From Capnocytophaga sputigena (lineage in GTDB: Bacteria; Bacteroidota; Bacteroidia; Flavobacteriales; Flavobacteriaceae): DNA of 64,000 bases. Where the stretch lies: contig NZ_UAVP01000011.1 of assembly GCF_900446695.1 (NCBI RefSeq), forward strand, positions 62,001 to 126,000. Direction: 5' to 3'. Under the pieces are notes generated by a model that was given only the letters and a program-made list of their open reading frames with translations, did no database searches and was not told the origin of the DNA. Both the position numbers and the translations under genes were made by a program. Position 1 is the stretch's first letter. Each line of letters begins with the position of its first letter. This document shows, piece after piece, positions 3,765-58,142 of the stretch.

Positions 3765-5765
3765 TTAGGCTACAGCTTCTCTAATTTCATTAATCATTAT
3801 TTCAACTTCTTTGTTGATACGACGGAAATTGGTCATAAGGATTTCGTTTTTGCGGTCGTTGCCTGCATTGTCTTTGAATGAATAGTAGGTAGGCATTTTC
3901 ACGTAATTGGCTTCCTCGTGTTTGATAGCTTTCATATCAAGGTTGATTTTACCTGAAATAGCTGATGTTTTAAACTCTTCGGTGGCATTGTCTTCGCCTT
4001 GTACGACCATACCTACCATTTCACCTGTGCGTTGCCCTGCAATTTTGCCCGCGGGTATCATTACATCCATCTTTTCGCTGATGGTCATATTGGTACCTTG
4101 GTTGGAGATAGATTCCGAGTAGCTTTTTTGTTTGATTTTACCAAAGAGTTTTTCAAGCCAATCAAGGGTACCCTTGTCGCGCACAGCTCCTGAGAGGATA
4201 TTCCCCATAATAGCTGAAATGGTTTCGGCTACTTCTTTTTTGTAGAATTGTCGCAATTGAGGCTGCTCTTGTAAGCCAAGCATTACTGCTACTTTATTGC
4301 TACGTGCAGTAGCGACGAGGTTGTCTATCTTGTGAATATAGATAGTAGGGAACTCATCGGCGATAAGTCCGCTGTAGAGATTACCTTTGTCGTTTATCTG
4401 ACTTATCACTCTATTGAGCACTGCTGAATACAAAGCTGAATTGATGTCCTGTGTGCGCGGGTTGGAGGCGAGAATGAGGATAGAGGGATTTTCAGGATCG
4501 GATATTTTGAGTTGCACTTCGTTGCCACTGAACACCCAAAAGCTTTCTTTGGTTGCCAAGCGAGATAGGAAAATCTTTATAGTGCCTATTTGTCCTTCAA
4601 GCTGGTCAAAGGCTTTGTTTTCATAGGCTGATTTGAAAGGCGACATAAGCGATACTAACTCTTCATTGGTAAAGAGAGTATCGAATATCTCTTCGTAACT
4701 GCGATTCATAAAGGCTAATATATGAGGTAGGTCAGAGTATTTGCCATTCTCATAGGTAGCAAAGTAATAGATAGTAGAGGCAAGAAAATTCACCGCTGAC
4801 TGCGTAAAGAACTGTTCAGAGCCACCCCCGCCAGAACTGCCTCCTTTTTGCAAGGCACTTACCATAGATTCAGCCATTTCTTGGGCTTGTGCTAAGGTGT
4901 TGATATATTCTTTTTTAAAAGGATTTACTCTTCGGGAGTACTCTACCTCATCAAGGTTTACCACGTGAAATTTGTGCTTGTAGTTAGGGTCGGTTTTCTT
5001 CTTTAGTAAGTGGTGGTAATAGGCAATTTCGCCTAAGCTTGGAAACTTAAAGTCGTAGATACACAAACAAAAACCTTTGCCTACCAACTGACGAATAGCA
5101 GGGTTAATCACCCCAAAGGACTTACCAGAACCAGGGACTCCAATGACCATTGAACCACGGAAAGGGTCGATATTCATCCAGCCTTGGTGCGTTTGTTTTT
5201 GGTAGCGGAACTTGTAAGGGATGTTTACAGAGGTAGGTGTTTCTACAAGTTCCCTATTTTGGTCGAAACTCTCCTCTTCGGTATTCCAACGGTCTTTATC
5301 CATTTTAGTTTGCATTAGTTTAGAAATACTATCAGCACCTTTTTGAGTGATCATCGTCCCTGCATACGAAAGCAGGAGGTAGCCTAATTGATAACCATTG
5401 AGATAGGGCACTACATAAGGTAAATTGGGATTGCCCGCTCCCCATACAAGGGCTAAAGAGCTTATGATCATTATCAGTCCCACAGATATGGGCAAAAAGA
5501 TTTCTTTGGTTGCATCTAAGTCGCGTTTCTTTTTAGCTCGTGTGCCTATAGCTACCAAGGTAATTAGTACAAGAGTGCTCTGCTTGGCATTGATAGGAGG
5601 AAAGAATACGCCCATCTTTGCAAAGCTTTGCAAGATATTAGATAGCACAGGTATCTCGGCATTTTGAAAGAAAAGAATTAGGCAATCCAAGGTTACGACT
5701 CCATAGACCATTTTTTGGAAGAAGTCGTATATTTTGATTTGGTTTTGTTGTTCTTGCATACTCAT
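3765..5765 (-). CDS. VirD4/TraG-type conjugative coupling protein (MobC-like)
   Basis: Coupling proteins are inner-membrane hexameric ATPases that deliver the relaxase-DNA complex to the type IV secretion channel. The 666-residue protein has N-terminal membrane segments (around residues 15-35, 60-75, 90-110 and 120-140). Walker A is GVPGSGKS at 209-216. Walker B is LIADEFPTI, with D470-E471. The layout matches the Bacteroidota MobC/TraG coupling proteins. In CTnDOT the equivalent mobC is next to mobA and mobB, whereas here it is about 13 kb away, downstream of traN. A glycine- and serine-rich loop (GGSSGGGGS) sits near residue 310. The gene is 33 bases downstream of traN. Confidence 0.92.
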   Translation of the reverse strand: MSMQEQQNQIKIYDFFQKMVYGVVTLDCLILFFQNAEIPVLSNILQSFAKMGVFFPPINAKQSTLVLITLVAIGTRAKKKRDLDATKEIFLPISVGLIMIISSLALVWGAGNPNLPYVVPYLNGYQLGYLLLSYAGTMITQKGADSISKLMQTKMDKDRWNTEEESFDQNRELVETPTSVNIPYKFRYQKQTHQGWMNIDPFRGSMVIGVPGSGKSFGVINPAIRQLVGKGFCLCIYDFKFPSLGEIAYYHHLLKKKTDPNYKHKFHVVNLDEVEYSRRVNPFKKEYINTLAQAQEMAESMVSALQKGGSSGGGGSEQFFTQSAVNFLASTIYYFATYENGKYSDLPHILAFMNRSYEEIFDTLFTNEELVSLMSPFKSAYENKAFDQLEGQIGTIKIFLSRLATKESFWVFSGNEVQLKISDPENPSILILASNPRTQDINSALYSAVLNRVISQINDKGNLYSGLIADEFPTIYIHKIDNLVATARSNKVAVMLGLQEQPQLRQFYKKEVAETISAIMGNILSGAVRDKGTLDWLEKLFGKIKQKSYSESISNQGTNMTISEKMDVMIPAGKIAGQRTGEMVGMVVQGEDNATEEFKTSAISGKINLDMKAIKHEEANYVKMPTYYSFKDNAGNDRKNEILMTNFRRINKEVEIMINEIREAVA

Positions 5766-5798
5766 AGGCTTCAGGTTTTAGGTTTCAGGTTGTAGGGG

Positions 5799-6680
5799 TT
5801 AGAAAGTATCGGCTTGTAATACATCGGAGTAATTGACTTTCATATCAATCACACGCCCTGAGATTTGTTCCTCGATAAGGCGTATCTTTAGTATTTTGCT
5901 ATTGGGAAAAGTAAATTTCTCAAACACAAAAATATTGCGATAGTTCTTGCGTATTTTAGTTTGATTATTGAGTGCATATAAAGGGGTTAGCAAAATACTT
6001 TGGTTGTTGGTAGCTTTGTAAATCTTTTTATCCTCGATACTGAACTTCATAGCGTCGATATTGCAAGGTAGGTTAGTAAGGTTTTCGATACTGATGTCTA
6101 AGAAGATGTAATCATCTATCACATAAACATTGTTTAGTAGCATTTTGAGTTTCAGCTTCTTTTTCTTGCGAATAGGCTTCTTGATTTTCTTTGCTTGAAT
6201 ATCCAAGGCAAAGCGTTTGAGCTCGTAATTAGAGTATTTGAGTTTAGGATATTCTAATGGTTGCATATCTTCGGCTTTGATATGAATATTAGAGGCTAAC
6301 CAGTTGTGCTCTTGCTCTTGGTAAATGGCGCGGTATTGCGCTAAAAACGATTGTCCTACTACTGTGATAATCCCTATATCCATTCCTGAACGCAATTCCT
6401 TTTTTTGAGTTGCATTTTCGATTAATTCATCTCCACTCTGTTCCACTTTAATGCGGGCAATGTTCTCAGAGGGCAAATCACCTATGAGGTAGTTGGTAGA
6501 GAGGTCTACAAACTGAATGGGTTCGGGGGCGATGATGTGAATATTTACCTCTTTACCCATAAAGATAATGGGGAGGTTATCTACATTAATTTGATTGACA
6601 AGGGTTTGTGCTTGTGCTTGTCCTCCCCCAAGAATGGCAAATAATGCTATAGAGAGTTTTGTAATGATATTATTCTTCAT
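5799..6680 (-). CDS. traN: Conjugative transposon protein TraN (DUF4138-like)
   Basis: The 293-residue protein begins with a signal peptide ending near AQAQT and so is exported. The remainder is beta-rich and includes IFMGKEVNIHIIAPEPIQFV and a basic stretch around residue 170 (KKIKKPIRKKKKLKLK). This matches the TraN/DUF4138 family of Bacteroidota conjugative elements, which is thought to act in the outer part of the mating channel in the manner of VirB9. The gene overlaps the end of traM by 11 bases, and the order traK-traL-traM-traN is the classical one. Assignment is by recalled family features plus synteny. Confidence 0.85.
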   Translation of the reverse strand: MKNNIITKLSIALFAILGGGQAQAQTLVNQINVDNLPIIFMGKEVNIHIIAPEPIQFVDLSTNYLIGDLPSENIARIKVEQSGDELIENATQKKELRSGMDIGIITVVGQSFLAQYRAIYQEQEHNWLASNIHIKAEDMQPLEYPKLKYSNYELKRFALDIQAKKIKKPIRKKKKLKLKMLLNNVYVIDDYIFLDISIENLTNLPCNIDAMKFSIEDKKIYKATNNQSILLTPLYALNNQTKIRKNYRNIFVFEKFTFPNSKILKIRLIEEQISGRVIDMKVNYSDVLQADTF

Positions 6681-7884
6681 TTTTGTTTAAATCTTGTTCG
6701 TTAATTAAATAGATGTAAGAGTTGTACTTGAGTTTTACTTTATTCTTGCGAATGATAGCTGCTACAGCTTCGGAGGTAGAACGGAATAGATTAGAGGCAA
6801 GGCTGGTAAAGAAACCTTGACCTGTTTCTACATTCACTCCTTGTACGGAGCTCGCTCCTAACTCTCGAATCATTTCTCTAAAGGCACTCGCAGGCACGTA
6901 TAGCCCTTTGAGCCCGTCCATATCGTAAATGGAAAGATTGATAGGGTAAATCTCATTATTGGTCATTATCGATACGATACTCAGGTAAACGCGCTGTTGT
7001 GAAAAGCCTGCAATCTCAGCATATAGGAAGCTACCTTTTCTCACCAATCTCTTCTGCTTTTTACCTATGAAAATATCTTCCAAAAGGCGTATACGAATGC
7101 GACTTCCTAAATAGCCTTTGATGTTTTCATCTATTACCGCTTTGATGTTGTTACCCTCTTTCTCTTTAGAGATATGATTAAAATTCCCTAAGTTATTTGC
7201 TTTGGTAACCTCTAAACTGCGATTGAGAAAGGCTTCGCGTTTTTCTTTATTGGCTTTTAAACGCTCTGAAGCTGCTTTCTGCCTTATTGCTTCAGGGTCT
7301 TTAGATTTCTCCAATGAGTCTAAGAATAACATCTGCTCTCGTAAGCCCTTTACAGGATCGTACTCTTTCTCCTCTTTTTCTTGCTTGCTACTCGCTGTAG
7401 GCTGTTGCGACTCATTAAGCATACGAATCATCTCTTTAGAACGTTCATAATCTTTATCGTCTTGTGATTGCAATGAAGATTGAGAAAAAGCACTGTTGTT
7501 AGGGCGGTAATAGGTGTTATCTCCTATCTTTGTAACTTTGCTATTAGCGTTGCGCTTGCGCTCGTATTCCAAAGAATCCAAATAACGCTTTTGAGCATCA
7601 TTCAAATTGTCGGAGTAGTTGTAAAGGCTATCGCTTTCCTTCTCAAAATCTTGAATCATAGAACGACTATCGTTTGTATTCTCAAACATCTTGTCGTAAG
7701 CGTCGTTTTTGTTCATTATGGGCGTTTCCACCTTTCCTAAAGAGGTACTCAGGTCTTTCTGTGCTTGCTCCTTTTTATCGTCTTTACTAAATAGGTCTAT
7801 TGCTTGATAACCTATGAAGCACACAAAAGGCAAAGCAATGAGAGGAAAGATATACTTGGGTTGCTTGAAGTTGATTTTTTTCAT
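6670..7884 (-). CDS. traM: Conjugative transposon protein TraM (VirB10-like)
   Basis: The 404-residue protein has one N-terminal membrane segment (about residues 12-30, IFPLIALPFVCFIGYQAIDL) and then a long charged, helical periplasmic linker rich in Lys, Glu and Ser. The C-terminal half is a folded domain that includes LVRKGSFLYAEIAGFSQQRV and YPINLSIYDMDGLKGLYVP. VirB10-type proteins span the envelope with this architecture and link the inner-membrane ATPases to the outer ring. It overlaps traL at its start by four bases and traN at its end by 11 bases, so the three are translationally coupled. Confidence 0.87.
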   Translation of the reverse strand: MKKINFKQPKYIFPLIALPFVCFIGYQAIDLFSKDDKKEQAQKDLSTSLGKVETPIMNKNDAYDKMFENTNDSRSMIQDFEKESDSLYNYSDNLNDAQKRYLDSLEYERKRNANSKVTKIGDNTYYRPNNSAFSQSSLQSQDDKDYERSKEMIRMLNESQQPTASSKQEKEEKEYDPVKGLREQMLFLDSLEKSKDPEAIRQKAASERLKANKEKREAFLNRSLEVTKANNLGNFNHISKEKEGNNIKAVIDENIKGYLGSRIRIRLLEDIFIGKKQKRLVRKGSFLYAEIAGFSQQRVYLSIVSIMTNNEIYPINLSIYDMDGLKGLYVPASAFREMIRELGASSVQGVNVETGQGFFTSLASNLFRSTSEAVAAIIRKNKVKLKYNSYIYLINEQDLNKNEE

Positions 7885-10285: not shown

Positions 10286-11128
10286 TTAGAATTTATGTTT
10301 GTATTGTCGCATTATACCTTTCATTATTTGTACATCTTCAACATAAGGAGCTATTTCATCGGTAGCCTTATAAGAATCATTGAGGAGTCGTTCTGTTTCT
10401 AAAAACCACTGATTGATATTCCCCGTGTTCTGTAGCATACGTTTAAATTCTCGCCAGCCTATCAGTGCTTTGTGATACATTAAAAATCGCTTGCCTCGTG
10501 GCATATCCAATGTAGTTGCCTTTTCGTAAATTCCTTTGATGATGTCTAACTTCTCTTGCAAAGGCTGTAATTGTCCTGTGTGTTTAGCATTCTCAAACGC
10601 TTTTTCATCTTTAAAACCCCATTGTGAATAAGTCTCAGGTTTGTCTGGAAACTCTTTAAGAGGGGTGAGCATTCTTTTATAGTACAACAAGAATAATGGG
10701 TCGGCTTTGACGGTTAAAGATGTCCAATGTGCCATATCACTGAGACTGCGTTTATAAATACTATCTACGTGCTTTTTGATGGTTTCTGCTTCTCTTTGCA
10801 TTACTATAGCTTTGAGCTGCCGTTGTGTCTCTAAGCCTGTAGCACTGAGCGGACGGATATCCTCACCATCCATATAACGGTGGTTATACTTGCGCCCGTT
10901 GTAAGAAAGCCATCCCCATACCATTGAATGGTTCTTGCTCAATTGAGGACCAACCTTCGTCCCAAATATTGTATAATACTCTGCTTCGGGCTTAAAATCT
11001 CCCCACTGTTGAAATACCTGCCGTTTTTCTTGTGCATTGAGGGCTTCATCTCTTACCTTGGTAATTTTATACTGAGCAAAGACCACAGTAGAAGCTAATA
11101 GGCACACATAAAGAATAGTTTGTTTCAT
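10286..11128 (-). CDS. Exported hypothetical protein of the transfer operon, shares C-terminal motif with upstream genes
   Basis: I place the start at the ATG at 11128, which begins a clear signal peptide (MKQTILYVCLLASTVVFAQ) 10 bases after the previous gene. The longer frame to 11185 would add a non-signal extension. The 280-residue product is helical and charged. Its extreme C-terminus, DVQIMKGIMRQYKHKF, closely resembles the C-terminus of the gene at 12517-13182 (DKDIVENIMRKFKHTF), and the upstream genes share this ending more loosely. A role as a periplasmic channel or pilus-tip component (VirB5-like) is inferred from location and architecture. The central 200 residues are not recognised. 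Confidence 0.7.
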   Translation of the reverse strand: MKQTILYVCLLASTVVFAQYKITKVRDEALNAQEKRQVFQQWGDFKPEAEYYTIFGTKVGPQLSKNHSMVWGWLSYNGRKYNHRYMDGEDIRPLSATGLETQRQLKAIVMQREAETIKKHVDSIYKRSLSDMAHWTSLTVKADPLFLLYYKRMLTPLKEFPDKPETYSQWGFKDEKAFENAKHTGQLQPLQEKLDIIKGIYEKATTLDMPRGKRFLMYHKALIGWREFKRMLQNTGNINQWFLETERLLNDSYKATDEIAPYVEDVQIMKGIMRQYKHKF

Positions 11129-11138
11129 CGTATTAATA

Positions 11139-11819
11139 TTAATAATGTTTATAACGTCTATACTTTTGCATAATCTCTTCAACAAGTTGTTTGTCGTGTT
11201 CTACAAAGTTGTTGAATACAGGTATAGAATAGATGTAAGCACGACTCTTGTTAAACTCTATGATATTGATAACGTTTAAAATAGACACATTTAATAAACG
11301 TAACTTCATATATATACGGTCGAGAAGTGCATCTCTATCGGCTGAGTCCATCAATCGTTTTCTGTCTTCTGTTAAGAAAGCTTTCCGCTCTTCAATAATT
11401 GACAATACTTTAGAATACACTTGATCTGTTTCTTTTTTGATCCAAAAACTGTATTGAGGGTTTTCTACAGCTAATCTGTTCATCTTTCTAAGATTCCCTA
11501 TAACACTAAAAACATAATCTTTTATATATTTGATTTGCTTGCTTTGACCAAAAAGAGAATTAACATTATATAGATTTTGGTAAATTTTCTCGTGGATAGC
11601 TACTACTTGTACTATTTTTTTATTAGACTCTTCATAAAACTCTTTCTGTTTTTTAAAGATACTATTAAAGTTTGCTAAACTCGCTTCCCTTGTTACGTGA
11701 TTGGCACTGATATGTGCCAATAAGGAACTATTGATCACCGTCTCATAGTAGCTTTGGGCTTGTAGTGTAGTTACTGCAGAAAAGAAAAGCAATACAGATA
11801 GTTGGATAATTTGTTTCAT
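11139..11819 (-). CDS. Exported helical protein, VirB5/TraI-like paralog 3
   Basis: The 226-residue product has a signal peptide ending near LQAQ and then mostly long amphipathic helices. It aligns by eye with the gene at 12517-13182: both have an NPQY or HPQY element followed by a lysine and a Y-x-x-(V/I)-L segment. Both then have DR-x-x-LLD-x-I-x-x-K-x-R and a C-terminal D-K-x-(I/L)-V-E-x-IM. The two are therefore likely duplicates within one family. It overlaps the upstream gene by four bases. Periplasmic helical proteins at this place are probably pilus-tip or channel subunits comparable to VirB5, which is inferred. Confidence 0.7.
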   Translation of the reverse strand: MKQIIQLSVLLFFSAVTTLQAQSYYETVINSSLLAHISANHVTREASLANFNSIFKKQKEFYEESNKKIVQVVAIHEKIYQNLYNVNSLFGQSKQIKYIKDYVFSVIGNLRKMNRLAVENPQYSFWIKKETDQVYSKVLSIIEERKAFLTEDRKRLMDSADRDALLDRIYMKLRLLNVSILNVINIIEFNKSRAYIYSIPVFNNFVEHDKQLVEEIMQKYRRYKHY

Positions 11820-12517
11820 ATACCAAGGCTTTTTACATTTTTTAAAATATCTTGTGCTAACTCCTTATCTCGGTCTATATAGTACTGAAATAAGCTTCTT
11901 CTGCGCTGTATAGCATAACTTGTCTCACGAATGACCGTAAGAGTAGCATAAGAATCATTATAGAGTCTATCAACTTCACTGAGAGCATAGTCCAATAATA
12001 TTTGGCGTTCAGCCCGTTCCATTTGGTTGATAGCCCCGTAAGAGAGTACTATACCTGCTAAAAATCGGGTAACCATTTGCAAATCGTCTATAAAATTGAT
12101 TTGTTTGGGCAGGATAATAGGAAAAGCTTCTCTAAAAACATCAGGTGCATTGTGCATTTCTCTGTAAATCTTCTGTTGCACTTGTTTTATTTCTTTGGCT
12201 CGCTCACTTATTACATAGCCCGTAGGAATTGCTTGTAGGGTAAAATCTACTATCCGCAAGCGGTCTTGTATCTTGCGACCTGTTTCCTTATACTTCTCCC
12301 ATTGACTTCTATTAAGTGCTTCAGTAGTAGTATTGAGCGTTTGTTTGTTGTTCAGCGTTTTTTGTCGCTCGTTTTCATCTACTGACCGTTCTACCTCGTT
12401 GTTAATCATTACGGGGGATAACGATTCTTTTTCCAAAGGAGCTCTACTTCTCCCTCCTGAAGAGCTGAGCCAAAAACCTAGAGTACATACTCCGATGAGA
12501 TAAATAACCTTTTTCAT
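11816..12517 (-). CDS. Exported helical protein, diverged paralog 2 in the VirB5-like cluster
   Basis: The 233-residue product begins with a hydrophobic N-terminus (VIYLIGVCTLGFWLSSSGG) that may be an uncleaved anchor, followed by a charged disordered stretch to about residue 70 and then helices. The C-terminal part (YYIDRDKELAQDILKNVKSL) resembles the ends of the two flanking genes, but the rest is much more diverged. Its start overlaps the stop of the upstream gene by one base and its end overlaps the downstream gene by four. It is probably part of the same structural set. Function is unknown. Confidence 0.65.
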   Translation of the reverse strand: MKKVIYLIGVCTLGFWLSSSGGRSRAPLEKESLSPVMINNEVERSVDENERQKTLNNKQTLNTTTEALNRSQWEKYKETGRKIQDRLRIVDFTLQAIPTGYVISERAKEIKQVQQKIYREMHNAPDVFREAFPIILPKQINFIDDLQMVTRFLAGIVLSYGAINQMERAERQILLDYALSEVDRLYNDSYATLTVIRETSYAIQRRRSLFQYYIDRDKELAQDILKNVKSLGI

Positions 12518-13182
12518 TAGAAAGTGTGTTTGAATTTTCGCATTATGTTTTCTACTATATCCTTATCGGTATTGATATATTGGTCGAAAGGACTGATAGC
12601 CCTCCAAAAGCCAATACGCTGAGCATTTTCCATTCCTATTTGAATGGTCAAAAGCCATAGTTTAAAGGAACGTATTTTGCTCTCTATAGAATCTAATAAC
12701 CTATAACGGTCACCAGCTGTCATTAGGTTTTTACCCTTACTATCAATCACGCTGTTAATCTCTGCCGTGAGCTTGAGTATTTCCTCGTAAGCCTTTTCAC
12801 TTGCTTTTACTCCAAAGACAGCGTACTGAGGATGTTTCTTAGCAAGGGTGAGTACATTAGAAGAATACTCTTGGCATTGCTTGAGTTGCTCCCATATATT
12901 TTTGAGTTGCATTCCGTTGGTAATGGTAGTAGAGACTTCTGTAAGTCCTTTATATACTTTTTCTTGTACCTGATTAACCAATGCCATTTGACCACTTATA
13001 AAGGTTTGCGCTTTTTGCAATTTGGTTTGCTCATCGGCAATTTTGTTCTGACCATTTTTAAGCGAAATAGCATAACCTGCCATTGAGGCTGTAACAGCTG
13101 GATCAAAATAAATGGTTTGTGCCTCTCCTATCGCAGGCAACAACATTGTGGTAAGTAATAATTTAAATAGCTTGTTTTTCAT
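12517..13182 (-). CDS. Exported helical protein, VirB5/TraI-like paralog 1
   Basis: The 221-residue product has a signal peptide (LFKLLLTTMLLPAIGEAQT) and then long helices (residues 45-110 look coiled-coil), with GDRYRLLDSIESKIRSFKLW near residue 160 and the ending IVENIMRKFKHTF. It directly follows the VirB4-like gene, overlapping its 3' end by 20 bases. That is the slot of traI (DUF4141) in CTnDOT, although I cannot confirm direct homology to that family. The likely role is a periplasmic or surface subunit of the mating channel (VirB5-like). Confidence 0.72.
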   Translation of the reverse strand: MKNKLFKLLLTTMLLPAIGEAQTIYFDPAVTASMAGYAISLKNGQNKIADEQTKLQKAQTFISGQMALVNQVQEKVYKGLTEVSTTITNGMQLKNIWEQLKQCQEYSSNVLTLAKKHPQYAVFGVKASEKAYEEILKLTAEINSVIDSKGKNLMTAGDRYRLLDSIESKIRSFKLWLLTIQIGMENAQRIGFWRAISPFDQYINTDKDIVENIMRKFKHTF

Positions 13183-16100
13183 ACTGTTGTGTGTTTATAA
13201 GTTCAGATAAGGGTAATTCTCTGTCTTTTACATATTGGTCAAATTTCTTTAAGGTATCTTTAGGGTGCTCCTTCTTGAACTCCTTAAAGAATGCTACTAC
13301 TTTTTCATCTAAAGGCTTTTTATAGAGGTTTACCAAGGCAAATATGGCATCTGTCTTTTCTTTGTATTTTTTTACATCGGCTACAAAAGCGTCTAAGGCT
13401 TTGTCGTAATTACCTAATGCTTTTACATAGTACAGAATAGCTGATTTTTCAGGCTTTTCAGTAGTATAGGTAAGATATTGTTCCATAGATACTTCGTTAC
13501 CATATACCTCTCCTTTAGCCCCTCGCTTTAGATAAAACTCTTTAAAACGCCCTCTACCTGTTTTGTTGTTTAGGTTATTAATCGTAAAGATTTTGTTTTG
13601 CTCTACTTTGTTGAGCGACAATAAAGCTGCTATACGGTCGAAATTGTCCTTAAACTTGGTTTGGTCAAGTAGTATGAACGTATCGGAGTTATTGATAATA
13701 GAGTCCTTTACTACCGTATTACCGATGATATCGTCTAACTCTTGGGTAACTACTACCGCTTCACCCCAAAACTTGCGCACTGTTTTGTACAGATAGAGTA
13801 TATAACCTCCCATTAGTTTAGAGGCAATGGCTTTCCACGCTTCCTCAATAATGAGGGCTTTACGCCTATCACTGCGCAAACGCATTTTTTGAATGAACGT
13901 ATCCATAATAATGAGTGTTACTATGGGGAACAGCTTTGGATTGTCTTTCACGTTGTCTATCTCAAAGACAATAAATGGCTCGTAAAACAAAGAACTATCG
14001 GCATTTTCGTTGAGTGTGGTACCATAGCGTCCACCTCTGTAAAAATCTTTGAGTACAAAGAGAAAAGTACGCAGGTTAAACTCTTGTTCCGTAATGCGGT
14101 GGTGCTTGTTGTTCATATACACAGGCAGGAACTTCTCGCAAAAGTCGTAGAAGGTATTAAACGATAGCTCTTGTATTTTAAATTCTTCTGCTACCTTTTT
14201 CACGCGTTTTACAATTGCTTGTCTTTGTCTATCAGTCTCTAATTCTTCATCATCTAAGGGGATTATTTCTCGTTTTACAGTAATAAGAGCTGCACTTTCA
14301 TTATAGGCTTTGCGCCTTTTTTCATCAGAAAGAGTGTCGTAAGCTTCATATATTTTATAAAACAAGTCGTCCGTATTAACATCTAACTTTTCTTTGCGCT
14401 TATCAGGGTGATACTCTTTTAAAAGTTTGCGCCCTCTTTCTTTTATCTCTTCAGTGCTGGCATCTAAAGGAAGTCCCAGTATATCATAGAAAGTCTCTTC
14501 CTCGTTGTTGTCTAAATCTTCTTCATAGATGTTGAACTTATTGAGATAGAGCAATAACTCCTCATTTGTTTTGGCTTTGTACCACTGGGTATCTCCCTCA
14601 AAATGTTGATGATAGTAGGCAAGGAGCGCGTTGTCTATAATGGATTTCTGAGCGGGGGACATTGTTGCATCAGCTCCTTGCCATATTAAGAAAATGAGAT
14701 TGGTGAGAAATTCAGTTTTTTCAATGTTAAACTCTTCTTTGCCTACTGCAAAAGGATTCATTGTAATGGGCTTTTCCTCTGTATACTGCACATAGCGACC
14801 TCCTTTATAGGAACAAGTACCTGAATAAGAATCACCCGTGTCTACGATTACTACATCGTAGTTATAAGTGAGGTATTGCTCTACAATATTGTTCATCAAG
14901 AACGATTTACCACTTCCCGAAGGTCCTAAAACAAACTTGTTGCGATTGTTGATTCGTCCTGTTTGGTAAGGTAAATCTGAAGTGTCTACCTTTAATGGTA
15001 CTCCTTGTCTATCAGCAAAACGCAAGTAAAAATTAGATTTTTCACTTATTGGGTAGCTCTCTTTAAAAAAAAAACACAAGCCCGCTTCGCTCGTCGTGGT
15101 AAACAAATCGTAGTCCTGCAACTCTACCGCATTGCCTATAATAGCTGACCGAAATAACTCCATTTGGTTGTAAGCATTCTTAGAAATGATGATTCCCTTG
15201 GTAAAGAGTTTGCTCTCAATAGTGGATTGTGTTTTCTCCATTTTCTCCAAGGTATCACAAGCAAAAACTAACGAAAAGTGAGCGTCTACTATAATCTGTC
15301 CATTGACAGCTATATCGTGCAAAAGCTCCTGAATTTCTTGGGCTACTATAGCATTGGAAGGGGCATTTTTAGCTACTCCATCGTGTTTTTTCATTTTCTT
15401 TTCTAACTCTCGTTGGCGTGATACTTGGGGAGGAATAGCAATTACTTGATTGTAGACAATTGTTTGATATGCTTCTAACTCGTTGAGAAAAGAAAAATTA
15501 TCTACTGCTAAATAGGCTACTGTACTGCTACCGCCTAAGCGTGAATAGGTTTCTATTTCATTAGGTAACTCTATGTTTTCTACATCCACGAAAGAGACTG
15601 TTTTGACAAATGAGCTGCCTATGCGCAAATACTCATTGGTAGATTTGATATTGTCAAACACGGGTACTTCAGCAAACTGCATTGTGAGAGTACCTCCGAT
15701 GTAATACTCAAAATCTTTCTCAAATAACCAATCGGGGTCACATTCATTTTGCTCTAACAACATATAGACCTTTTCGCACTTGTCTCGTAGCTCCTTGTAA
15801 GCCCTTTCTGAAAATTTATATTTGCTTTTCTTCTTATCCAATAAATCGGTGAAAAGTAGTAAGGTGTCTATGGTCTTATAAATGCGTCCGTTGAAATGGT
15901 CAGAGTATTTCTGTTGTAAATAGGTATTTTCTTTTTCAGATACATATCGCTTTTTGGCAAAAATATCTACTTTCTGCACGATGTGTCCTTCTCCTACAAT
16001 AGCAATTACTTGATTGAGAATAGTGTGAAACTGCTCATAACGTTCGGGGTCGGCTGAGTATTGTTCTACTATATTTTTAATACGAATGCCTATCACAGGA

Positions 16101-16195
16101 TTGCCATACTGCCCAATGAGCACATCGTACTTCCAACCGTGTTCACTGCCATAGTCGTACCCTATAAAAGGAAATTCAAAAGCCTTTGTCTTCAT
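13163..16195 (-). CDS. traG: TraG family conjugative transfer ATPase (VirB4-like) with an internal DnaJ J-domain
   Basis: VirB4-type ATPases power assembly of the mating channel at the inner membrane. The 1010-residue protein has an N-terminal membrane-associated domain. Walker A is GPSGSGKS at residues 424-431, and Walker B is near residues 779-786 (KALIIEEAW), followed by VVVTQELDDI. Between these lies a full J-domain at about 569-634: FYDILGLP, four predicted helices, HPD at 596-598, and the typical DTLSDEKRRKAY end. Family members that I recall are roughly 800-850 residues long, so the excess here roughly fits the insert. The frame is continuous, so this is a fusion or insertion and not an assembly join. 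J-domains stimulate Hsp70 (DnaK), so DnaK may help build or recycle this channel, which is inferred. Confidence 0.92.
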   Translation of the reverse strand: MKTKAFEFPFIGYDYGSEHGWKYDVLIGQYGNPVIGIRIKNIVEQYSADPERYEQFHTILNQVIAIVGEGHIVQKVDIFAKKRYVSEKENTYLQQKYSDHFNGRIYKTIDTLLLFTDLLDKKKSKYKFSERAYKELRDKCEKVYMLLEQNECDPDWLFEKDFEYYIGGTLTMQFAEVPVFDNIKSTNEYLRIGSSFVKTVSFVDVENIELPNEIETYSRLGGSSTVAYLAVDNFSFLNELEAYQTIVYNQVIAIPPQVSRQRELEKKMKKHDGVAKNAPSNAIVAQEIQELLHDIAVNGQIIVDAHFSLVFACDTLEKMEKTQSTIESKLFTKGIIISKNAYNQMELFRSAIIGNAVELQDYDLFTTTSEAGLCFFFKESYPISEKSNFYLRFADRQGVPLKVDTSDLPYQTGRINNRNKFVLGPSGSGKSFLMNNIVEQYLTYNYDVVIVDTGDSYSGTCSYKGGRYVQYTEEKPITMNPFAVGKEEFNIEKTEFLTNLIFLIWQGADATMSPAQKSIIDNALLAYYHQHFEGDTQWYKAKTNEELLLYLNKFNIYEEDLDNNEEETFYDILGLPLDASTEEIKERGRKLLKEYHPDKRKEKLDVNTDDLFYKIYEAYDTLSDEKRRKAYNESAALITVKREIIPLDDEELETDRQRQAIVKRVKKVAEEFKIQELSFNTFYDFCEKFLPVYMNNKHHRITEQEFNLRTFLFVLKDFYRGGRYGTTLNENADSSLFYEPFIVFEIDNVKDNPKLFPIVTLIIMDTFIQKMRLRSDRRKALIIEEAWKAIASKLMGGYILYLYKTVRKFWGEAVVVTQELDDIIGNTVVKDSIINNSDTFILLDQTKFKDNFDRIAALLSLNKVEQNKIFTINNLNNKTGRGRFKEFYLKRGAKGEVYGNEVSMEQYLTYTTEKPEKSAILYYVKALGNYDKALDAFVADVKKYKEKTDAIFALVNLYKKPLDEKVVAFFKEFKKEHPKDTLKKFDQYVKDRELPLSELINTQQYEKQAI

Positions 16196-16979: not shown

Positions 16980-17303
16980 TTAGTTGAGACCAAAGAATGC
17001 TCCTACGAAAATAGGCACTAAGATGAGGAACAAACAAGCACCTCCCCAACCGAGGATTTCCTTGTTGATGTCTTGATCACCATTTGTCCACTTGTTGTAG
17101 ATACGTAACCCTCCAATGAGACCTACAATACCTCCAATCATCATAATGAGTATTTTCAAAGGCCCCCAATAGCTCTTAATACTATTGGCAGCATCAGTAA
17201 TAGCACCTGCACCTTGTGCAAGTATAGGAGTCGTGACACAGATTCCTAAAAGTAACAAGAGTAGTAGTTGCTTCCTCGTTACAGATTTTTGAATGTTTAA
17301 CAT
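16980..17303 (-). CDS. traE: Conjugative transposon protein TraE (DUF4134, VirB2 pilin-like)
   Basis: The ATG at 17303 (MLNIQKSV) is taken as start; the frame can begin at a TTG two codons earlier. The 107-residue product has a hydrophobic leader (LLLLLLLGICVTTPILAQGA) and two further membrane helices at about residues 50-70 (LKILIMMIGGIVGLIGGLRI) and 85-105 (GWGGACLFLILVPIFVGAFF). This is the VirB2 pilin layout and matches DUF4134/TraE, the presumed conjugative pilin of Bacteroidota ICEs. It is the first of the core channel genes and is followed by traF. Confidence 0.88.
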   Translation of the reverse strand: MLNIQKSVTRKQLLLLLLLGICVTTPILAQGAGAITDAANSIKSYWGPLKILIMMIGGIVGLIGGLRIYNKWTNGDQDINKEILGWGGACLFLILVPIFVGAFFGLN

Positions 17304-17329
17304 ATACAAAAAATTAAAATTAGTTTTTT

Positions 17330-18788: not shown

Positions 18789-20300
18789 TTATTTTCGTTT
18801 TTTACGTCGTTTTTTTAATTGTTTATCTAATTCGTCTTCTGTGGTATTGCGTGGAGCATAAGTACTTTTACCCAAAGCTTTAAAGATGTCTGCTACATCG
18901 TTTAAAACCTCTGAGATTTTTCCGCTTGGGCTGTGTTTGAGGTCAGTTTGGCTTCTAATCTCAGAGGTACTGTGTATGGATGTTCCTACGATAAATGCTT
19001 GGTATTCCTCTTTATCTAAAAGAAAGGATAGCTTGTGTATTTGGTGATAACGCTCGTGTATAGTGTAATACGCTCCGTTATCGTCTTGCTCTAAAATGAC
19101 AAAATCATCGTCCTGTGCATTATGAATATGTTGTCTTACATCTTCTTTGAGCTGCTGAAAATCAGGATTGCTCTCTTTGCTTTTAAAGCGTTTGTTTTCA
19201 AACAACATAAAATCTTTAACTCCTACTCCTTCTTTGAGCAAGTACTGTATAAGTATTTGCTTTTCTTTATCGCTTCTCAGATTGTAGTCCTTTAGGCGTT
19301 CAAACTCTCTTTTGTCAATACTATTTTCTGTAAAGTCAAAGATGTCTTTCATCTTAGCTATCTCACTGCCTTTATACACCTGTTGGTTTTTATTGTCAAT
19401 AAGCGTATAACCAAAAGGCTGTTTATCGTCTTTAAAGTGAAAAACGATGTCTATCCCAAAGATTTGGCACAGTTTTTCTTGTAACTCACTCACATATTCT
19501 ATCTGTGGCGGAATAGGCTCTTGCGATAGAATGTTTCGTTCGTATAGTCCCTGTTGAACTCTATCATCTATCACCTTAAAAACTTTATTGCTGTACAAGT
19601 CTTTGTACTTATCTATAAAGGCTTTGATTTGCTTAATGCGCTTATCGCCTTTTTGCTTCTCTTGGTAATGGAGTTTATCACTGAAAAGTGTTTTCTGAAC
19701 AACACCATTGTACAATATATCCACCTGATTAGGGGTGTCATCACTTTGAACTAGTTTAAAACCATTACGTGTGAGTAGCATTTCTAACTGCTGAAGGTTG
19801 CTAAACCTATATTGCAAAAGCTTCTCTATAGTAGCTTGATGATTTGTGCCTAATACCTTTTCCATTGCCTTTGCTAAGGCTTGTTGGGATTTAAGTCGCT
19901 CAAAGCTGTCGTTTATCTTCTTGCCTGTGTTTTTATCTACACGGGTAGAAACAATATGCACGTGGTTGTTTTCGGTGTCCTTGTGAAAGACTACAAGATA
20001 AGGTTGCTGTCCATAGCCCATCTCTTGCATAAAATTATCGGCTATCTCAGTGAGCTGCTCCTTACTGTGTTCTTGGTACTTTGTTGATATTACCGCGTGA
20101 AATTGTGGTTTTCGGGTGCGTTCACTTTCTGAGATGGCTTTAAAGTAATTTCTTACCTCCTCTTGAGAGCTGCTCTCATTGATAAATGAAGGAAAGTTTT
20201 TCATCAGCATTAGCTCGCCCTTCTCGTTATGTACTTTCTTGTCGTTGTACTTTACTCCGTGAAAGTCCCTGCTTGCTGAGCTAAGAATTTTTACTATCAT
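18789..20300 (-). CDS. mobB: Relaxase / mobilization nuclease (MobB-like, MOBP-type motifs)
   Basis: Relaxases nick one strand at oriT and stay bound to the transferred end. The 503-residue protein (ATG at 20300; a TTG two codons upstream is less likely) has an N-terminal relaxase domain. Conserved H68 (QFHAVIST) and the three-histidine motif HKDTENNHVHIV (H106, H113, H115) are visible, and Y18 in VKYND is the candidate nucleophile. The remaining 350 residues are charged and helical and end in a very basic tail (KQLKKRRKKRK). It overlaps the accessory mobilization gene by 20 bases and precedes the parA-like gene by one base. Confidence 0.9.
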   Translation of the reverse strand: MIVKILSSASRDFHGVKYNDKKVHNEKGELMLMKNFPSFINESSSQEEVRNYFKAISESERTRKPQFHAVISTKYQEHSKEQLTEIADNFMQEMGYGQQPYLVVFHKDTENNHVHIVSTRVDKNTGKKINDSFERLKSQQALAKAMEKVLGTNHQATIEKLLQYRFSNLQQLEMLLTRNGFKLVQSDDTPNQVDILYNGVVQKTLFSDKLHYQEKQKGDKRIKQIKAFIDKYKDLYSNKVFKVIDDRVQQGLYERNILSQEPIPPQIEYVSELQEKLCQIFGIDIVFHFKDDKQPFGYTLIDNKNQQVYKGSEIAKMKDIFDFTENSIDKREFERLKDYNLRSDKEKQILIQYLLKEGVGVKDFMLFENKRFKSKESNPDFQQLKEDVRQHIHNAQDDDFVILEQDDNGAYYTIHERYHQIHKLSFLLDKEEYQAFIVGTSIHSTSEIRSQTDLKHSPSGKISEVLNDVADIFKALGKSTYAPRNTTEDELDKQLKKRRKKRK

Positions 20301-20715
20301 TCGCAATGAGTTTATATATCTGCCTAAAGATTTGGTTTTGTTCAGCCTTGAGCTTTACAATCTCGTCTAAACGCTGAGTAAAGGCAATGAGCTCTGCTCG
20401 GTGTACCTCCTTCTTGGCGTTGGCTACATAAGCGAACTGATTGATATTGTTTTCAATCTTAGCAAAGATGTTGTCTTGTTTTTCAATAAACTTTAAAACC
20501 TCACGTCGTTCTTGTACGTTTATATTACCTTCCACTGCTGATATTATCAAATCGGTGAGGGTAGTTTTTCTTTCTGCACTTAACCTTTTCCACCGTTCTT
20601 TCTGACTTTCAGTAATTCTAAGAATAAGGTATTTTGATTTGTTAAGAGCTGTCTTTTCCAACGTCTTTAGGTTTAAATTTTTGGCAAAGTAAGAGAGGTT
20701 TTTTAAGGTGCGCAA
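20281..20715 (-). CDS. mobA: Mobilization accessory protein (MobA-like, probable ribbon-helix-helix)
   Basis: The frame has no early ATG. The longest version starts with TTG at 20715, and another in-frame TTG lies 18 codons downstream (before EKTALNKSKY), so the start is uncertain. The product (up to 144 residues) has a short strand plus helices, KYLILRITESQKERWKRLSAERKTTLTDLI, as in ribbon-helix-helix relaxosome proteins, then a helical C-terminus. Such proteins bind oriT and recruit the relaxase. It overlaps the relaxase gene by 20 bases. The phased repeats immediately upstream of its start are likely binding sites. Confidence 0.8.
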   Translation of the reverse strand: MRTLKNLSYFAKNLNLKTLEKTALNKSKYLILRITESQKERWKRLSAERKTTLTDLIISAVEGNINVQERREVLKFIEKQDNIFAKIENNINQFAYVANAKKEVHRAELIAFTQRLDEIVKLKAEQNQIFRQIYKLIANDSKNS

Positions 20716-21712: not shown

Positions 21713-23014
21713 TTAAGAATTTTGTAATAAGTGAGAGTAATCCTCAGGAAGTTCTGCATCTATTTCTCTCAAATATTGTTGCAAAGCTGAAAGGGTAGCG
21801 TGCCCTGTAATGAGCATTAATCTATCATAAGTTTCATATTGAGAATATTGTGTGCGTAACTCTCGATATAGTTTCGTGATAAAGGTATGTCTAAAAGAAT
21901 AAAGACCATAATCTTTACCCAAATTTAGTTCGTCTTTTACTTTCTTAAACCTTTTAGTCCAATAATCTCGTTTATTCATTTCTTCAGTCTGCCAATCTCC
22001 TACACCAGTAGGAGTAAATAAATAATGATTAGGGCTAAGTCCTTTAAAATGTTGTATTTCATTGAGCAAAATTTCAGGTATGATTTTTATTTTTACCAAC
22101 TTATTTTTAGCTCTCACGTTTAGTTTAGCACCATCAAAATCAATATCCTTAACTTGTAATCTACAAACTTCAATAGGACGCAAAAAATTATAAGAAACGA
22201 ATTTTACAAATAGTAGTAAATCTCTATCTTTTTCTTCCATAAGAGTAAAAATATCGTCTTGCTGATTTTGAGTATAGGTTTTGTTACGTTCAGGTTTAGC
22301 TTGTAACTTCTTGATTTTTTCAACATTATTATGCTGAATAATCTCATTTTCTTCTAATGTACTAAAAATGGCATTCAGTACCGCAAGAGTGTTATTTCGG
22401 TTACGAGGACTTGATTTTAACAGTACTGAATTGAGAAAGTCATTTATTTCTTTCTTAGTAATATTACCTATGGGAGTATTTTCTAATCCATTACTTTTTA
22501 GAAACTTTTGAAACTGACCTATCCTATATTTGTAATCGGAAAAGGTCTTGTCCGAAACACTACTTTTCTTTAGGTTTAAAGCAAAATCAAGGGCTGAGAT
22601 TGCAGTATACCCACTGTTTTGAGCAATGGTTTCAGGACTAATTTCAGGTTGTTCAGCATTAGGAGTATAACCACTCTCCAAAATATTCTCTATGATATTT
22701 CGCAAAGAGTGGATTTTTATATACCTGCTATCAAAATCCTTGTGCTCTTGGTTTATCTTAAAGAAGATAGAAGGCTGTTTTATCATTTTGCCATCTTCAT
22801 TTCTGAAATAGTAATAAACATACCATCGTTTGTGCTTTTTTAGAATCTCTTCTTTTTCTCTTTCAGAAAAAGCTGAAAGTCTTTTTTCAGAAATAATTTT
22901 TGGATAAATTTTAGGGGCAGAATATTTCTTCTTCATAAGTTCTTTCAATTTTGTATACTCGGAAATATACTCGGTTTTATACTCGCTTTGTATAAGTTGG
23001 TAAAGTGTAGACAT
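21713..23014 (-). CDS. int: Tyrosine recombinase / ICE integrase
   Basis: Tyrosine integrases insert and excise ICEs at an att site. The 433-residue protein has a basic N-terminal arm-binding part, a core-binding SAM-like domain (about residues 130-235) and a C-terminal catalytic domain. Catalytic residues visible are R279 (FLRPIEVCRL), a lysine near 303-307, R375 in YSFRHTF, H405 in TGHATLSAL and the nucleophile Y414 in QQYLRE. The first histidine of box II is a tyrosine (Y372), which I recall as common in Bacteroidota integrases. The start codon is 46 bases from the 3' end of tRNA-fMet, so that tRNA is the probable attachment gene. Confidence 0.92.
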   Translation of the reverse strand: MSTLYQLIQSEYKTEYISEYTKLKELMKKKYSAPKIYPKIISEKRLSAFSEREKEEILKKHKRWYVYYYFRNEDGKMIKQPSIFFKINQEHKDFDSRYIKIHSLRNIIENILESGYTPNAEQPEISPETIAQNSGYTAISALDFALNLKKSSVSDKTFSDYKYRIGQFQKFLKSNGLENTPIGNITKKEINDFLNSVLLKSSPRNRNNTLAVLNAIFSTLEENEIIQHNNVEKIKKLQAKPERNKTYTQNQQDDIFTLMEEKDRDLLLFVKFVSYNFLRPIEVCRLQVKDIDFDGAKLNVRAKNKLVKIKIIPEILLNEIQHFKGLSPNHYLFTPTGVGDWQTEEMNKRDYWTKRFKKVKDELNLGKDYGLYSFRHTFITKLYRELRTQYSQYETYDRLMLITGHATLSALQQYLREIDAELPEDYSHLLQNS

Positions 23015-23042
23015 AAAAAAATACGCTCTAAGGCGTATTTTT
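23015..23042 (-). terminator. Hairpin terminator after tRNA-fMet
   Basis: AAAAATACGC (23017-23026) and GCGTATTTTT (23033-23042) form a perfect 10-bp stem with a 6-base loop. On the minus strand it follows the tRNA and precedes the integrase start, so it should separate tRNA transcription from int. Confidence 0.75.
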
Positions 23043-23060
23043 ATTAGGTTTTTAGTTTAG

Positions 23061-23133
<73 letters not shown>

Positions 23134-23144
23134 ATTTCTGGGTG

Positions 23145-23175
23145 CAAAAGTACAACCTTTTTTTTAAATACCAAA
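23145..23175 (-). promoter_or_regulatory. Promoter of tRNA-fMet
   Basis: On the minus strand TACTTTTG (23145-23152) matches the Bacteroidota -7 box TAnnTTTG, and TTTG at 23172-23175 is a -33 box with a 19-base spacer. The transcript would start just before the tRNA 5' end. Confidence 0.7.
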
Positions 23176-23202
23176 CTTTTGGAAAACTTTTTTTGTACTT
23201 TT

Positions 23203-24312
23203 TTAATCTTCTAAATATATTCTCTTGATTCTGTGTGCCATAGAGGTGATCAATTCATAAGAAATAGTACCTGCTGATTCGGCTAAAGTTTCAGCTGTAT
23301 GAGTTTTATCAAATACAATTACTTCATCACCTTCTTGACAAGAAATTTCAGTAACATCTACTAAGATCATATCCATACACACATTACCTATGATAGAAGC
23401 TTTTTTTCCATTGATAAATACGAAACCTTTCCCCTTGCCATAAATACGATTGATACCATCTGCATGACCTACAGGAATTGTAGCAGTTCTGGTAATATGA
23501 TCGGCAATGTATCCTCGATTATAGCCCAAACTTTCACCTATTTGCAAAGTGTGTAGTTGTGAAATAACACTTTTCAGCGTCATAATAGGTGTAAGATATT
23601 GCTGCAATTTGACATCATTAGCGAAACCATACATACCTATACCACAACGCACCATATCAAATTGTGCTTGAGGATAGTTTAGTATACCTGAAGTATTGCA
23701 TTGATGATAGATTACTTTATGAGTAAATGTTTTGTTTATTTTTTCTTGAAAAGCTATAAAAGTATTGATTTGATTTTCTGTAAATTCTTTCTCATTCATA
23801 TCTTCAGAAGCAGCTAAATGAGAATAAGCAGTTTTCACTTTTACAGTAGTATTGTTTTTTAACAGAGCAAGTGTTTCTTCTATTTCACTTAAGTCAAAAC
23901 CTAAACGATTGAGTCCTGTATTACATTTAAGGTGTACTGGATAATTTGCTAACTGTTGAATTTTAGCATAGTCTAAAAATAATTGGGCAATACGCTGTGA
24001 ATATAAAGTAGGTTCTAAGTTATATTTTACAATATCATTAAAGTTTATAGGTTGTGGATGTAATACTAAAATAGGAAGAGTTATTCCAGCTTTTCTAAGA
24101 GCAATTCCTTCAGAAGTATAAGCTACTGCAAAATAATTAACTAATCCTTTTTTTTGCAAATGAGAAGCTATAGCTACAGAATTATTTCCATAGGAAGAGG
24201 CTTTCACTACAGCTAAGAACAAAGTTGTAGGTTTAAGTCGGTTTTTTAGGTAATGAATATTTTTTTCTAAGGCAGTAAGGTTGATTTCTAAAGTGGTTTC
24301 TTCTGTTTTCAT
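23203..24312 (-). CDS. alr: Alanine racemase
   Basis: The enzyme converts L-alanine to D-alanine for peptidoglycan with PLP. The 369-residue protein has the PLP-lysine K37 in AVVKASSYGNNS (usually AVVKANAYGHG) and the catalytic tyrosine at about Y264 in SLGYNRGY. The motif VGHADGINRIYG takes the place of the common GYADG. The N-terminal TIM barrel and C-terminal beta domain are both present at normal length. Its ATG overlaps the stop of the crotonase gene upstream by four bases, so the two are co-transcribed. It is the first chromosomal gene beyond the ICE junction. Confidence 0.95.
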   Translation of the reverse strand: MKTEETTLEINLTALEKNIHYLKNRLKPTTLFLAVVKASSYGNNSVAIASHLQKKGLVNYFAVAYTSEGIALRKAGITLPILVLHPQPINFNDIVKYNLEPTLYSQRIAQLFLDYAKIQQLANYPVHLKCNTGLNRLGFDLSEIEETLALLKNNTTVKVKTAYSHLAASEDMNEKEFTENQINTFIAFQEKINKTFTHKVIYHQCNTSGILNYPQAQFDMVRCGIGMYGFANDVKLQQYLTPIMTLKSVISQLHTLQIGESLGYNRGYIADHITRTATIPVGHADGINRIYGKGKGFVFINGKKASIIGNVCMDMILVDVTEISCQEGDEVIVFDKTHTAETLAESAGTISYELITSMAHRIKRIYLED

Positions 24313-43441: not shown

Positions 43442-44788
43442 TTACTTTTTCATAGCTTCTTTGATATGAGCTACTTCAGCTCCTATATCACCTGCTCCTA
43501 CAGCTAATAATAATTGAGGATGTTTTTTGAGTAGAAGAGGAATAAGTTCAGTTTTGTTTACTAAAGTTTTTTTAGGAGTAGTAATTTTCTCTAATAAAAC
43601 TTGTGAAGTAATTCCTTCTATAGGTAATTCACGTGCAGGATAGATATCTAGCAATATCACCTCATCAAATTGTGATAGACTTTTTGCAAAATCATCCATA
43701 AAATCACGTGTACGAGTGAAAAGGTGAGGTTGGAAAACAATAGTTTTAGGAGTATTAGGATACATTTCGGCTACTGCTTGATATAGTGCATTGATTTCGG
43801 AAGGGTGATGGGCATAATCATCAATGAAAACAAAGTCTTTTTCTTTAATGATATATGAAAAACGACGTTTTACCCCTTTAAAAGTAGCTAAGTGAGGCAA
43901 CAATTTTTCAGGAGCAATTCCTGCTTTTACAGCCATAGCAATAGCTGCCAAAGCATTGAGTAAGTTGTGTCGCCCTGGTTTCATAAAGGTAATATCTTTA
44001 TAAATACCTCCTGCATATTTGAAATCAAAATGATAAATACCATCTACAATATGAATGTTTTGGAAACTGTAATCAGAATTATCTTCTAAACCATACGTTT
44101 CACCAGCTATATTTAGTCCATTGCGCACAATGAGACTGCCTCCTGGTTTAATTTTTCCAGCAAATTCGTGAAAACCTTCTATAAGATGTTGCTCATCACC
44201 ATAAATATCGAGGTGATCAGCGTCCATAGAGGTAATACAAGCAATGTTAGGTGAAAGTCGCAAAAATGAACGGTCAAACTCATCGGCTTCAACTACTGTA
44301 TATTCACTACCTTTGAGCACCAAATTACTATTGAAATTTTCAGCTATACCTCCTAAAAAAGCACTTACTGAAGCTCCACTTTCTACCATAATATGGGCTA
44401 AAATACTTGATGTAGTTGTCTTACCATGAGTACCTGCGACAGCTAAACAAAAAGTGTTTTTTGTGATAAATCCTAACACTTCTGAGCGTTTTACTACTTG
44501 GTAGCCATTTTCTTGAAAAAAAACTAACTCTTTATGATCTTTAGGAACAGCAGGGGTATATACCACTAAAGTAGTTTCTACATTTTTAAATGAATTAGGA
44601 ATAGCATCTAACTCATCGGTAAAGTGTACTTTTATACCTTCTTTTTCTAGCATTTCAGTAATATCGGTAGGAGTACGATCGTAGCCAGCTACCACTTTAC
44701 CATTGGTATTGAAATAACGTGCAAGGGCAGACATTCCTATGCCTCCAATACCTATAAAATAAACGTTTGTTATTGGTTGTAAATTCAT
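43442..44788 (-). CDS. murC: UDP-N-acetylmuramate-L-alanine ligase
   Basis: MurC adds the first amino acid to the peptidoglycan precursor in the cytoplasm using ATP. The 448-residue protein has the N-terminal UDP-binding glycine-rich motif FIGIGGIGMSALARYF, the ATP loop GTHGKTTT at about 119-126 and DDYAHHPSEI in the C-terminal domain. It is the last gene of a three-gene set with murG and a YwqK-like gene. The usual downstream ftsQ-ftsA-ftsZ genes are absent here, since an oppositely oriented M16 peptidase gene follows. Confidence 0.97.
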   Translation of the reverse strand: MNLQPITNVYFIGIGGIGMSALARYFNTNGKVVAGYDRTPTDITEMLEKEGIKVHFTDELDAIPNSFKNVETTLVVYTPAVPKDHKELVFFQENGYQVVKRSEVLGFITKNTFCLAVAGTHGKTTTSSILAHIMVESGASVSAFLGGIAENFNSNLVLKGSEYTVVEADEFDRSFLRLSPNIACITSMDADHLDIYGDEQHLIEGFHEFAGKIKPGGSLIVRNGLNIAGETYGLEDNSDYSFQNIHIVDGIYHFDFKYAGGIYKDITFMKPGRHNLLNALAAIAMAVKAGIAPEKLLPHLATFKGVKRRFSYIIKEKDFVFIDDYAHHPSEINALYQAVAEMYPNTPKTIVFQPHLFTRTRDFMDDFAKSLSQFDEVILLDIYPARELPIEGITSQVLLEKITTPKKTLVNKTELIPLLLKKHPQLLLAVGAGDIGAEVAHIKEAMKK

Positions 44789-46706: not shown

Positions 46707-46715
46707 AGAATTTAG

Positions 46716-47933: not shown

Positions 47934-47971
47934 TTGTCAATTTACCAATTTGCTAATTGACAACAAACTGG

Positions 47972-48688: not shown

Positions 48689-48709
48689 AGTCTTTGTTAA
48701 TTTAGAGCG

Positions 48710-48739
48710 CAAATGTACAAAACAATTGATAATTAGCAA
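48710..48739 (-). promoter_or_regulatory. Promoter of cutC
   Basis: Minus-strand TACATTTG (48710-48717) and TTG (48737-48739) with a 19-base spacer. It decides the cutC start. Confidence 0.7.
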
Positions 48740-48818
48740 TGAAGAATGAGTAATTAATATAAAAATATCCGAGAAAAGTATTATACTTCCTCCGATATTT
48801 ATATTTGAAGATGTTTCT

Positions 48819-49805: not shown

Positions 49806-49814
49806 AGCCCCCCA

Positions 49815-50039: not shown

Positions 50040-50054
50040 ATCTGTTTATTTTAA

Positions 50055-55350: not shown

Positions 55351-55380
55351 TTGGCGTATTCAAAAAAACACGTACTTTTG
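55351..55380 (+). promoter_or_regulatory. Promoter of the glycosyltransferase gene
   Basis: TTG (55351-55353) and TACTTTTG (55373-55380) are 19 bases apart. The ATG follows 29 bases later. Confidence 0.75.
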
Positions 55381-55409
55381 CAAAATAAAAGAACATAAAA
55401 CAATAATTT

Positions 55410-56894: not shown

Positions 56895-56921
56895 TTAGAT
56901 TAGTAAATTAGAATATAAATT

Positions 56922-56958: not shown

Positions 56959-56966
56959 AGAATTTT

Positions 56967-58136: not shown

Positions 58137-58142
58137 AATACA

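Follow-up and report, generated by a model that had tools for sequence, protein, structure and literature searches.

How conjugation machines obtain help from their host for assembly and for the unfolding of their substrates is an open question, and one gene in the genome of Capnocytophaga sputigena raises it in a concrete form. The window, that is, the whole stretch of 64,000 nucleotides analysed here, encodes a TraG/VirB4-type conjugation ATPase, and the preliminary description of this DNA placed a complete DnaJ J-domain inside it (about residues 569-634, nucleotides 14289-14491), with the HPD motif at residues 596-598, between Walker A (424-431) and Walker B (near 782), all in a single uninterrupted frame. 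Each of these features was recovered where it had been described (Table 1). The Pfam DnaJ model, proposed in that description as a check, matched well over its threshold (E 2.5e-16, model positions 2-63 of 63) and covers essentially the same nucleotides.

Table 1. Features of the TraG gene and of the conjugation module around it (window positions)
Feature	Position	Strand	Basis
VirD4-type coupling protein (YWFCY, TrwB_AAD_bind, TraG-D_C)	3765..5765	-	Pfam
TraN (DUF4138)	5799..6680	-	Pfam; name TraN from an annotated plasmid
TraM	6670..7884	-	Pfam Transposon_TraM
TraG/VirB4-type conjugation ATPase of 1010 aa, J-domain inside	13163..16195	-	single uninterrupted frame
C-terminal tail, residues 945-1010	13166..13363	-	alignment
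Walker B-like LIIEE, residues 781-785	13841..13855	-	sequence and alignment; E784-E785 invariant, 42 rows of A1
Whole insert (linker, J-domain, linker), residues about 534-676	14168..14596	-	alignment with relatives
J-domain, residues 569-632	14300..14491	-	PF00226 59.9 bits, cut-off 27.8
HPD motif, residues 596-598	14402..14410	-	HPD in 83/83 aligned rows, 76/76 distinct sequences
Segment 517-528, equivalent to TraB 589-600, a stretch with VirB11-contacting residues in pKM101	14612..14647	-	MAFFT and hhalign
Walker A GPSGSGKS, residues 424-431	14903..14926	-	invariant, 42 rows of A1
DUF4134 protein	16980..17309	-	Pfam
MobA/VirD2-like relaxase	18789..20306	-	Pfam
Phage-type (tyrosine) integrase	21713..23014	-	Pfam

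The window TraG scored 469.7 bits against TIGR03783 (TraG family conjugative transposon ATPase, curated cut-off 261.55) and 431.6 bits against PF19044 (P-loop_TraG, Pfam), and its P-loop part aligns with solved structures of VirB4 (4ag5, and TrwK 7o41). It thus passes the curated cut-offs of the TraG family, the VirB4 class of Bacteroidota T4SS, and shares the Walker motifs with it. The J segment, when compared with solved structures, matched the J-domains of DnaJ proteins, the best values being 4.1e-11 for the single protein and 6e-16 for the profile. No DnaJ C-terminal or zinc-finger family was present among the 15 Pfam families matching the window TraG at E <= 1, and by its predicted domain content the protein is a class C J-domain protein, i.e. 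one that has a J-domain but lacks the zinc finger and the C-terminal domain of DnaJ.

A scan of genome contigs revealed 122 stretches encoding a relative. The 80 that ranked highest were retained; these 80 loci are not a neutral sample, since the ranking favours full-length matches. In all of these best 80 of 122 loci the alignment runs through the insert, with the J-domain at the same site and the HPD intact, so the homologues with the same insertion that the preliminary description had asked for do exist. Together with the window protein and two copies from its own genome they make up 83 rows, or 76 distinct sequences after dropping the own copies and identical rows, and the HPD is found in every one of them. 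Both DnaJ and P-loop_TraG were matched by Pfam in 42/42 members of alignment A1, which consists of the window protein and 41 of the 80 loci. The closest named relatives of the window TraG among the best 80 of 122 loci belong to Capnocytophaga (84, 82 and 80% identity). The finished plasmids p1 of Chryseobacterium sp. JJR-5R and pWB8 of Sphingobacterium faecium, both typed as non-mobilizable in PLSDB, likewise carry TraG proteins with the J-domain (J-TraG), under the annotation TraG family conjugative transposon ATPase. Nothing was found in favour of an artefact in which a frameshift or faulty assembly fused two genes, and the recurrence of the same fusion in all of the best 80 of 122 loci, across many assemblies, and in the two finished plasmids leaves it a practically negligible chance, and it was rejected. 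The TraG gene is divided between two reading frames at three loci of the J-TraG clade, which gives some copies a broken appearance.

The distribution of J-TraG was assessed with a profile of the junction (A3), at most six candidates being scored per genome. A full-length match was present in 3/395 genomes of the phylum sample, namely the window's own genome and two genomes of one family, and the other matches listed covered the J part only, with at most 68.4 bits. Within the family of those two genomes, 61 of 197 genomes have J-TraG, a single genome giving as many as four matches, and 16 of the 33 genera are represented; this family is probably Weeksellaceae, because the named loci are mostly from Chryseobacterium and its relatives (Weeksellaceae where labelled in the tree). 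The window's genus has J-TraG in 4/20 genomes, its own included, and when the whole protein was used as a query against a sample of 299 genomes of the window's family, only the own genome, among the matches listed, runs through the insert. The J segment alone matched 191 plasmid records, the best 60 of which were examined by gene annotation: two of these 60 matches lie inside TraG genes (p1 and pWB8), 15 have no annotation under the match, and the genes under the other 43 bear the name DnaJ, J-domain or DnaJ C-terminal domain protein, except for one that is called DNA-binding protein. Among viral contigs three stretches matched a pattern and none encoded a relative.

The preliminary description held that the insertion replaces the variable part of the ATPase and keeps both NTPase motifs. 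The second part of this claim stands, both motifs being untouched, but the first does not: the columns of residues 533-676 hold only 4-9 residues in the 13 relatives aligned that have no insert (Pedobacter pA27BH1, Adhaeribacter, Pontibacter and the proteins of ten further genomes), whereas the eight J-TraGs aligned have 144-150 residues there, the J-domain included. Five plasmid proteins, one from Mucilaginibacter and four from Bacteroidales, fill the same columns with 110-114 residues that contain no J-domain. Since the length of the loop varies in this manner, the insert occupies a tolerant loop and leaves the ATPase motifs unaffected. In the alignment the J-domain lies in the loop that joins the first P-loop half to the helical segment after it, and it would project from the ATPase core. 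The TraG of Bacteroides pBF9343 and that of the Mucilaginibacter plasmid have such an insert of 110-114 aa at this site, in which no J-domain or HPD is visible, as judged by alignment alone. A derivation of the J insert from that of pBF9343/Mucilaginibacter was considered and found unsupported: the flanks of the J insert were compared with the other inserts in 48 comparisons with 500 shuffles each, and at most 5/500 shuffles reached the score in 2/48 and at most 8 in 3/48, all three at the N flank, so that the two are not convincingly alike. The tail after residue 944 measures 57-69 aa in the eight J rows and 0-64 aa in the others; in the window TraG, as in the J rows generally, it is longer than in most relatives, including those with no insert, and its sequence varies and is less constrained.

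A tree of 26 TraG rows, calculated with the insert columns left out, unites the eight J rows in one clade (support 100/100), which requires a single change, whereas the non-J insert needs two changes on the same tree. The sister of the J clade consists of Pedobacter and Mucilaginibacter (support 97/93); some long branches among the distant rows of this tree are unsure. Over the deep alignment the mean majority frequency is 0.81 in the J-domain and 0.91-0.97 in stretches of the ATPase core, while the linkers before and after the J-domain, with 0.75 and 0.72, both fall below it. Selection was estimated from 123 close pairs of the 76 sequences, which share sequences and are thus not independent; the median dN divided by the joint dS is 0.017 for the J-domain, with a wide interquartile range of 0 to 0.039; the core has 0.028, the N-terminal part 0.033, the linkers 0.066 and the tail 0.094. 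Divided by the region's own dS, the medians are 0.022 for the J-domain, 0.023 for the core, 0.032 for the N-terminal part, 0.082 for the linkers and 0.123 for the tail. In close pairs the J-domain is therefore about as constrained as the ATPase core, with the linkers less so, and is under purifying selection.

Few positions of the J-domain are as well conserved as the HPD and the basic residues of helix II, lysine or arginine being present at 585 and 589 in 76/76 and at 590 in 73/76 distinct sequences. In known J-domains the HPD and helix II face Hsp70, and the contact of helix II is positively charged in one of the two J-domain/Hsp70 pairs described in PMC7289447. One position of helix II departs from this: it is Tyr in all four other J-domains of the host genome, but Gly in 50/76 and Phe in 25/76 J-TraGs, so the contact with DnaK may be different in its hydrophobic part. 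Otherwise the positions that bind Hsp70 are retained, as the HPD and the basic residues are invariant or nearly so. The host genome encodes DnaK (887.9 bits), and Pfam gave no match to Hsp70 in any of 20 other proteins examined from the region 583 to 23014.

The J-domain match, the invariant HPD, the basic helix II, the constraint, the single clade, the host DnaK and the presence in 61 of 197 genomes together suggest that a VirB4-class motor of Bacteroidota T4SS probably gained, once in the sampled tree, a functional class C J-domain that brings host DnaK to the motor. The J-domain would face the cytosol from the VirB4 motor, bind ATP-loaded host DnaK and trigger ATP hydrolysis, and DnaK would in this way be loaded where the channel opens to the cytosol. 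The loaded DnaK might then remodel or assemble the VirB4 platform, or hold, unfold or release a substrate, such as the pilin or the relaxase. The sequence evidence partly supports the preliminary description, in which the ICE may use host DnaK to assemble, remodel or recycle its transfer channel, or may couple transfer to stress. Several observations count against recruitment of DnaK: the lower conservation of the J-domain than of the core over the deep alignment, the replacement of the helix II Tyr, the dependence among the dN/dS pairs together with the wide range for the J-domain, and the existence of related TraGs which have no J-domain, some of them on plasmids typed as conjugative. The first of these would fit with a J fold kept for packing or oligomerisation that does not engage Hsp70, as would a site that tolerates other inserts or none; however, such a structural insert is improbable given that the residues known from passages of PMC7289447 to bind Hsp70, the HPD and basic helix II, belong to its best conserved positions, and that selection on the J-domain about equals that on the core in close pairs. 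The J-domain might also serve in quality control and recruit DnaK in cis to fold or disaggregate TraG, which is large, foreign and often newly arrived. A large multidomain protein on the mobile elements of many hosts could conceivably need such assistance, but TraG relatives of 814-946 aa do without a J-domain and no client site was identified, and this possibility seems rather doubtful.

A further possibility is that the J-domain sits at the docking place of VirB11, and that DnaK or the domain itself completes and switches the VirB4 hexamer in a VirB11-like role. The motors of R388 (TrwK/VirB4) and of pKM101/R46 (TraB/VirB4) are homologous to TraG and have no J-domain, and the VirB4 protein of R46, which we take to be the parent of pKM101, has E, E, A and Y at positions 591, 594, 598 and 619. 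The systems of R388 and pKM101 operate with VirB11, and mutation of E591, E594 and A598 of pKM101 TraB weakens the binding of VirB11, Y619 being also among such residues, according to passages of PMC9259494. A direct alignment of the J-TraG family with the VirB4 profile ended before the insert, and the TraG family without the J-domain, which aligned with R46 TraB/VirB4 with an hhalign probability of 97.2%, was used as a bridge (hhalign and MAFFT). By this route A526 of the window TraG corresponds to A598 of R46 TraB, which puts the start of the insert some 7 residues beyond the A598 equivalent, past the helix by which pKM101 TraB contacts VirB11, and favours a VirB11-like role; the site is assigned by alignment, and no place was found there for the equivalent of Y619, which weakens it. 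Neither the host genome nor any of 7/7 Bacteroidota plasmids matched the VirB11 family (T2SSE, PF00437) above the cut-off, unlike R46 (78.7 bits), which again speaks for such a role, but five host matches reach E <= 0.001 without passing the cut-off (best 21.7 vs 24.9 bits), none of them in the window, and the IncW record, the other VirB4-type control, gave only 12 bits, also under the cut-off; either a VirB11 can escape this search or the IncW record lacks the gene. Nor does the absence of VirB11 call for a J-domain, because five of the seven plasmids without VirB11 have a TraG without the J-domain. We therefore regard a VirB11-like role as possible but on the unlikely side, and would put forward just as tentatively the wider idea that conjugation machines without VirB11 place a co-chaperone domain on the face of VirB4 that is bound elsewhere by VirB11, host Hsp70 becoming a subunit of the energy centre that would drive platform switching or substrate unfolding. 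The alignment of R46 VirB4 (4853-7450 of the R46 record) with TrwK is poor at residues about 190-280, unlike the remainder.

Sec63 and Pam18 are class C J-domain proteins fixed to membrane translocation machines, and among mobile genetic elements the polyomaviruses have a J-domain built into a hexameric ATPase, the large T antigen. J-TraG may be regarded as analogous to the Sec63 translocon J-domain and to the J-domain of the T-antigen ATPase. The structure of Sec63 matches the window TraG through the J-domain only, and no likeness to Sec63, Pam18 or large T was seen outside the J-domain in the comparisons with solved structures; unlike in these proteins, the J-domain of the window TraG sits inside the P-loop ATPase domain of VirB4. 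The preliminary description knew of no described VirB4 of this kind, and a full-text search of open papers, with subscription papers and preprints outside its scope, agrees with it: both parts belong to known families, but no description was found there of a J-domain in VirB4/TraG or in conjugation, or of the union of the two in one polypeptide. The sole paper found with both terms concerns pGIAK1, which has VirB4 and a DnaJ domain as separate genes (PMC3756968), and the passages of PMC10434189 and PMC6491836 make no mention of a J-domain in TraG.

If host DnaK is indeed recruited by the window TraG and its relatives, Hsp70 would join the parts of the conjugation machine, and the state of DnaK could affect transfer. 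The fusion of a J-domain to the motor also offers a precise genetic handle, as one change in the HPD would separate the recruitment of Hsp70 from the ATPase function. The hosts of the J-TraG clade include opportunists such as Elizabethkingia and Capnocytophaga.

The genes around TraG had been described as an ICE, and this is borne out in so far as the integrase, relaxase, coupling protein and VirB4 of such an element are all present together (Pfam), while its left end and att sites were not found. Chromosomal-type genes, from alanine racemase onward, begin at 23203, after the integrase. No shared word over 13 bp, as would mark att repeats, was detected between 22901-23450 and the 60 kb to the left of the window plus window 1-21000, and no tRNA is present in the 60 kb left of the window. 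DUF4134, TraM, TraN and the coupling protein occur in the same order on the Chryseobacterium plasmid p1, and the DUF4134 protein is presumably TraE, which is VirB2-like; the window proteins at the places of DUF4133 and TraK have no Pfam match. ParA is also encoded in the neighbourhood of TraG. After TraG, at window 10286-13182, four consecutive proteins of 221-275 aa have no Pfam match at E <= 0.001, and a run of similar-sized proteins follows TraG in Chryseobacterium and Pedobacter plasmids too. To the left of the window, positions 44137-51804 of the host contig encode a VgrG-like protein (Phage_base_V, Phage_GPD), an NlpC/P60 protein, an 825-aa AAA ATPase resembling ClpV/ClpB, and a PKD protein; these genes share the strand of the tra genes, are type VI secretion-like and adjoin the conjugation module. 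Contig positions 52784-58846 encode a protein of 2020 aa with Toprim, Eco57I-type methylase and SNF2/helicase domains.
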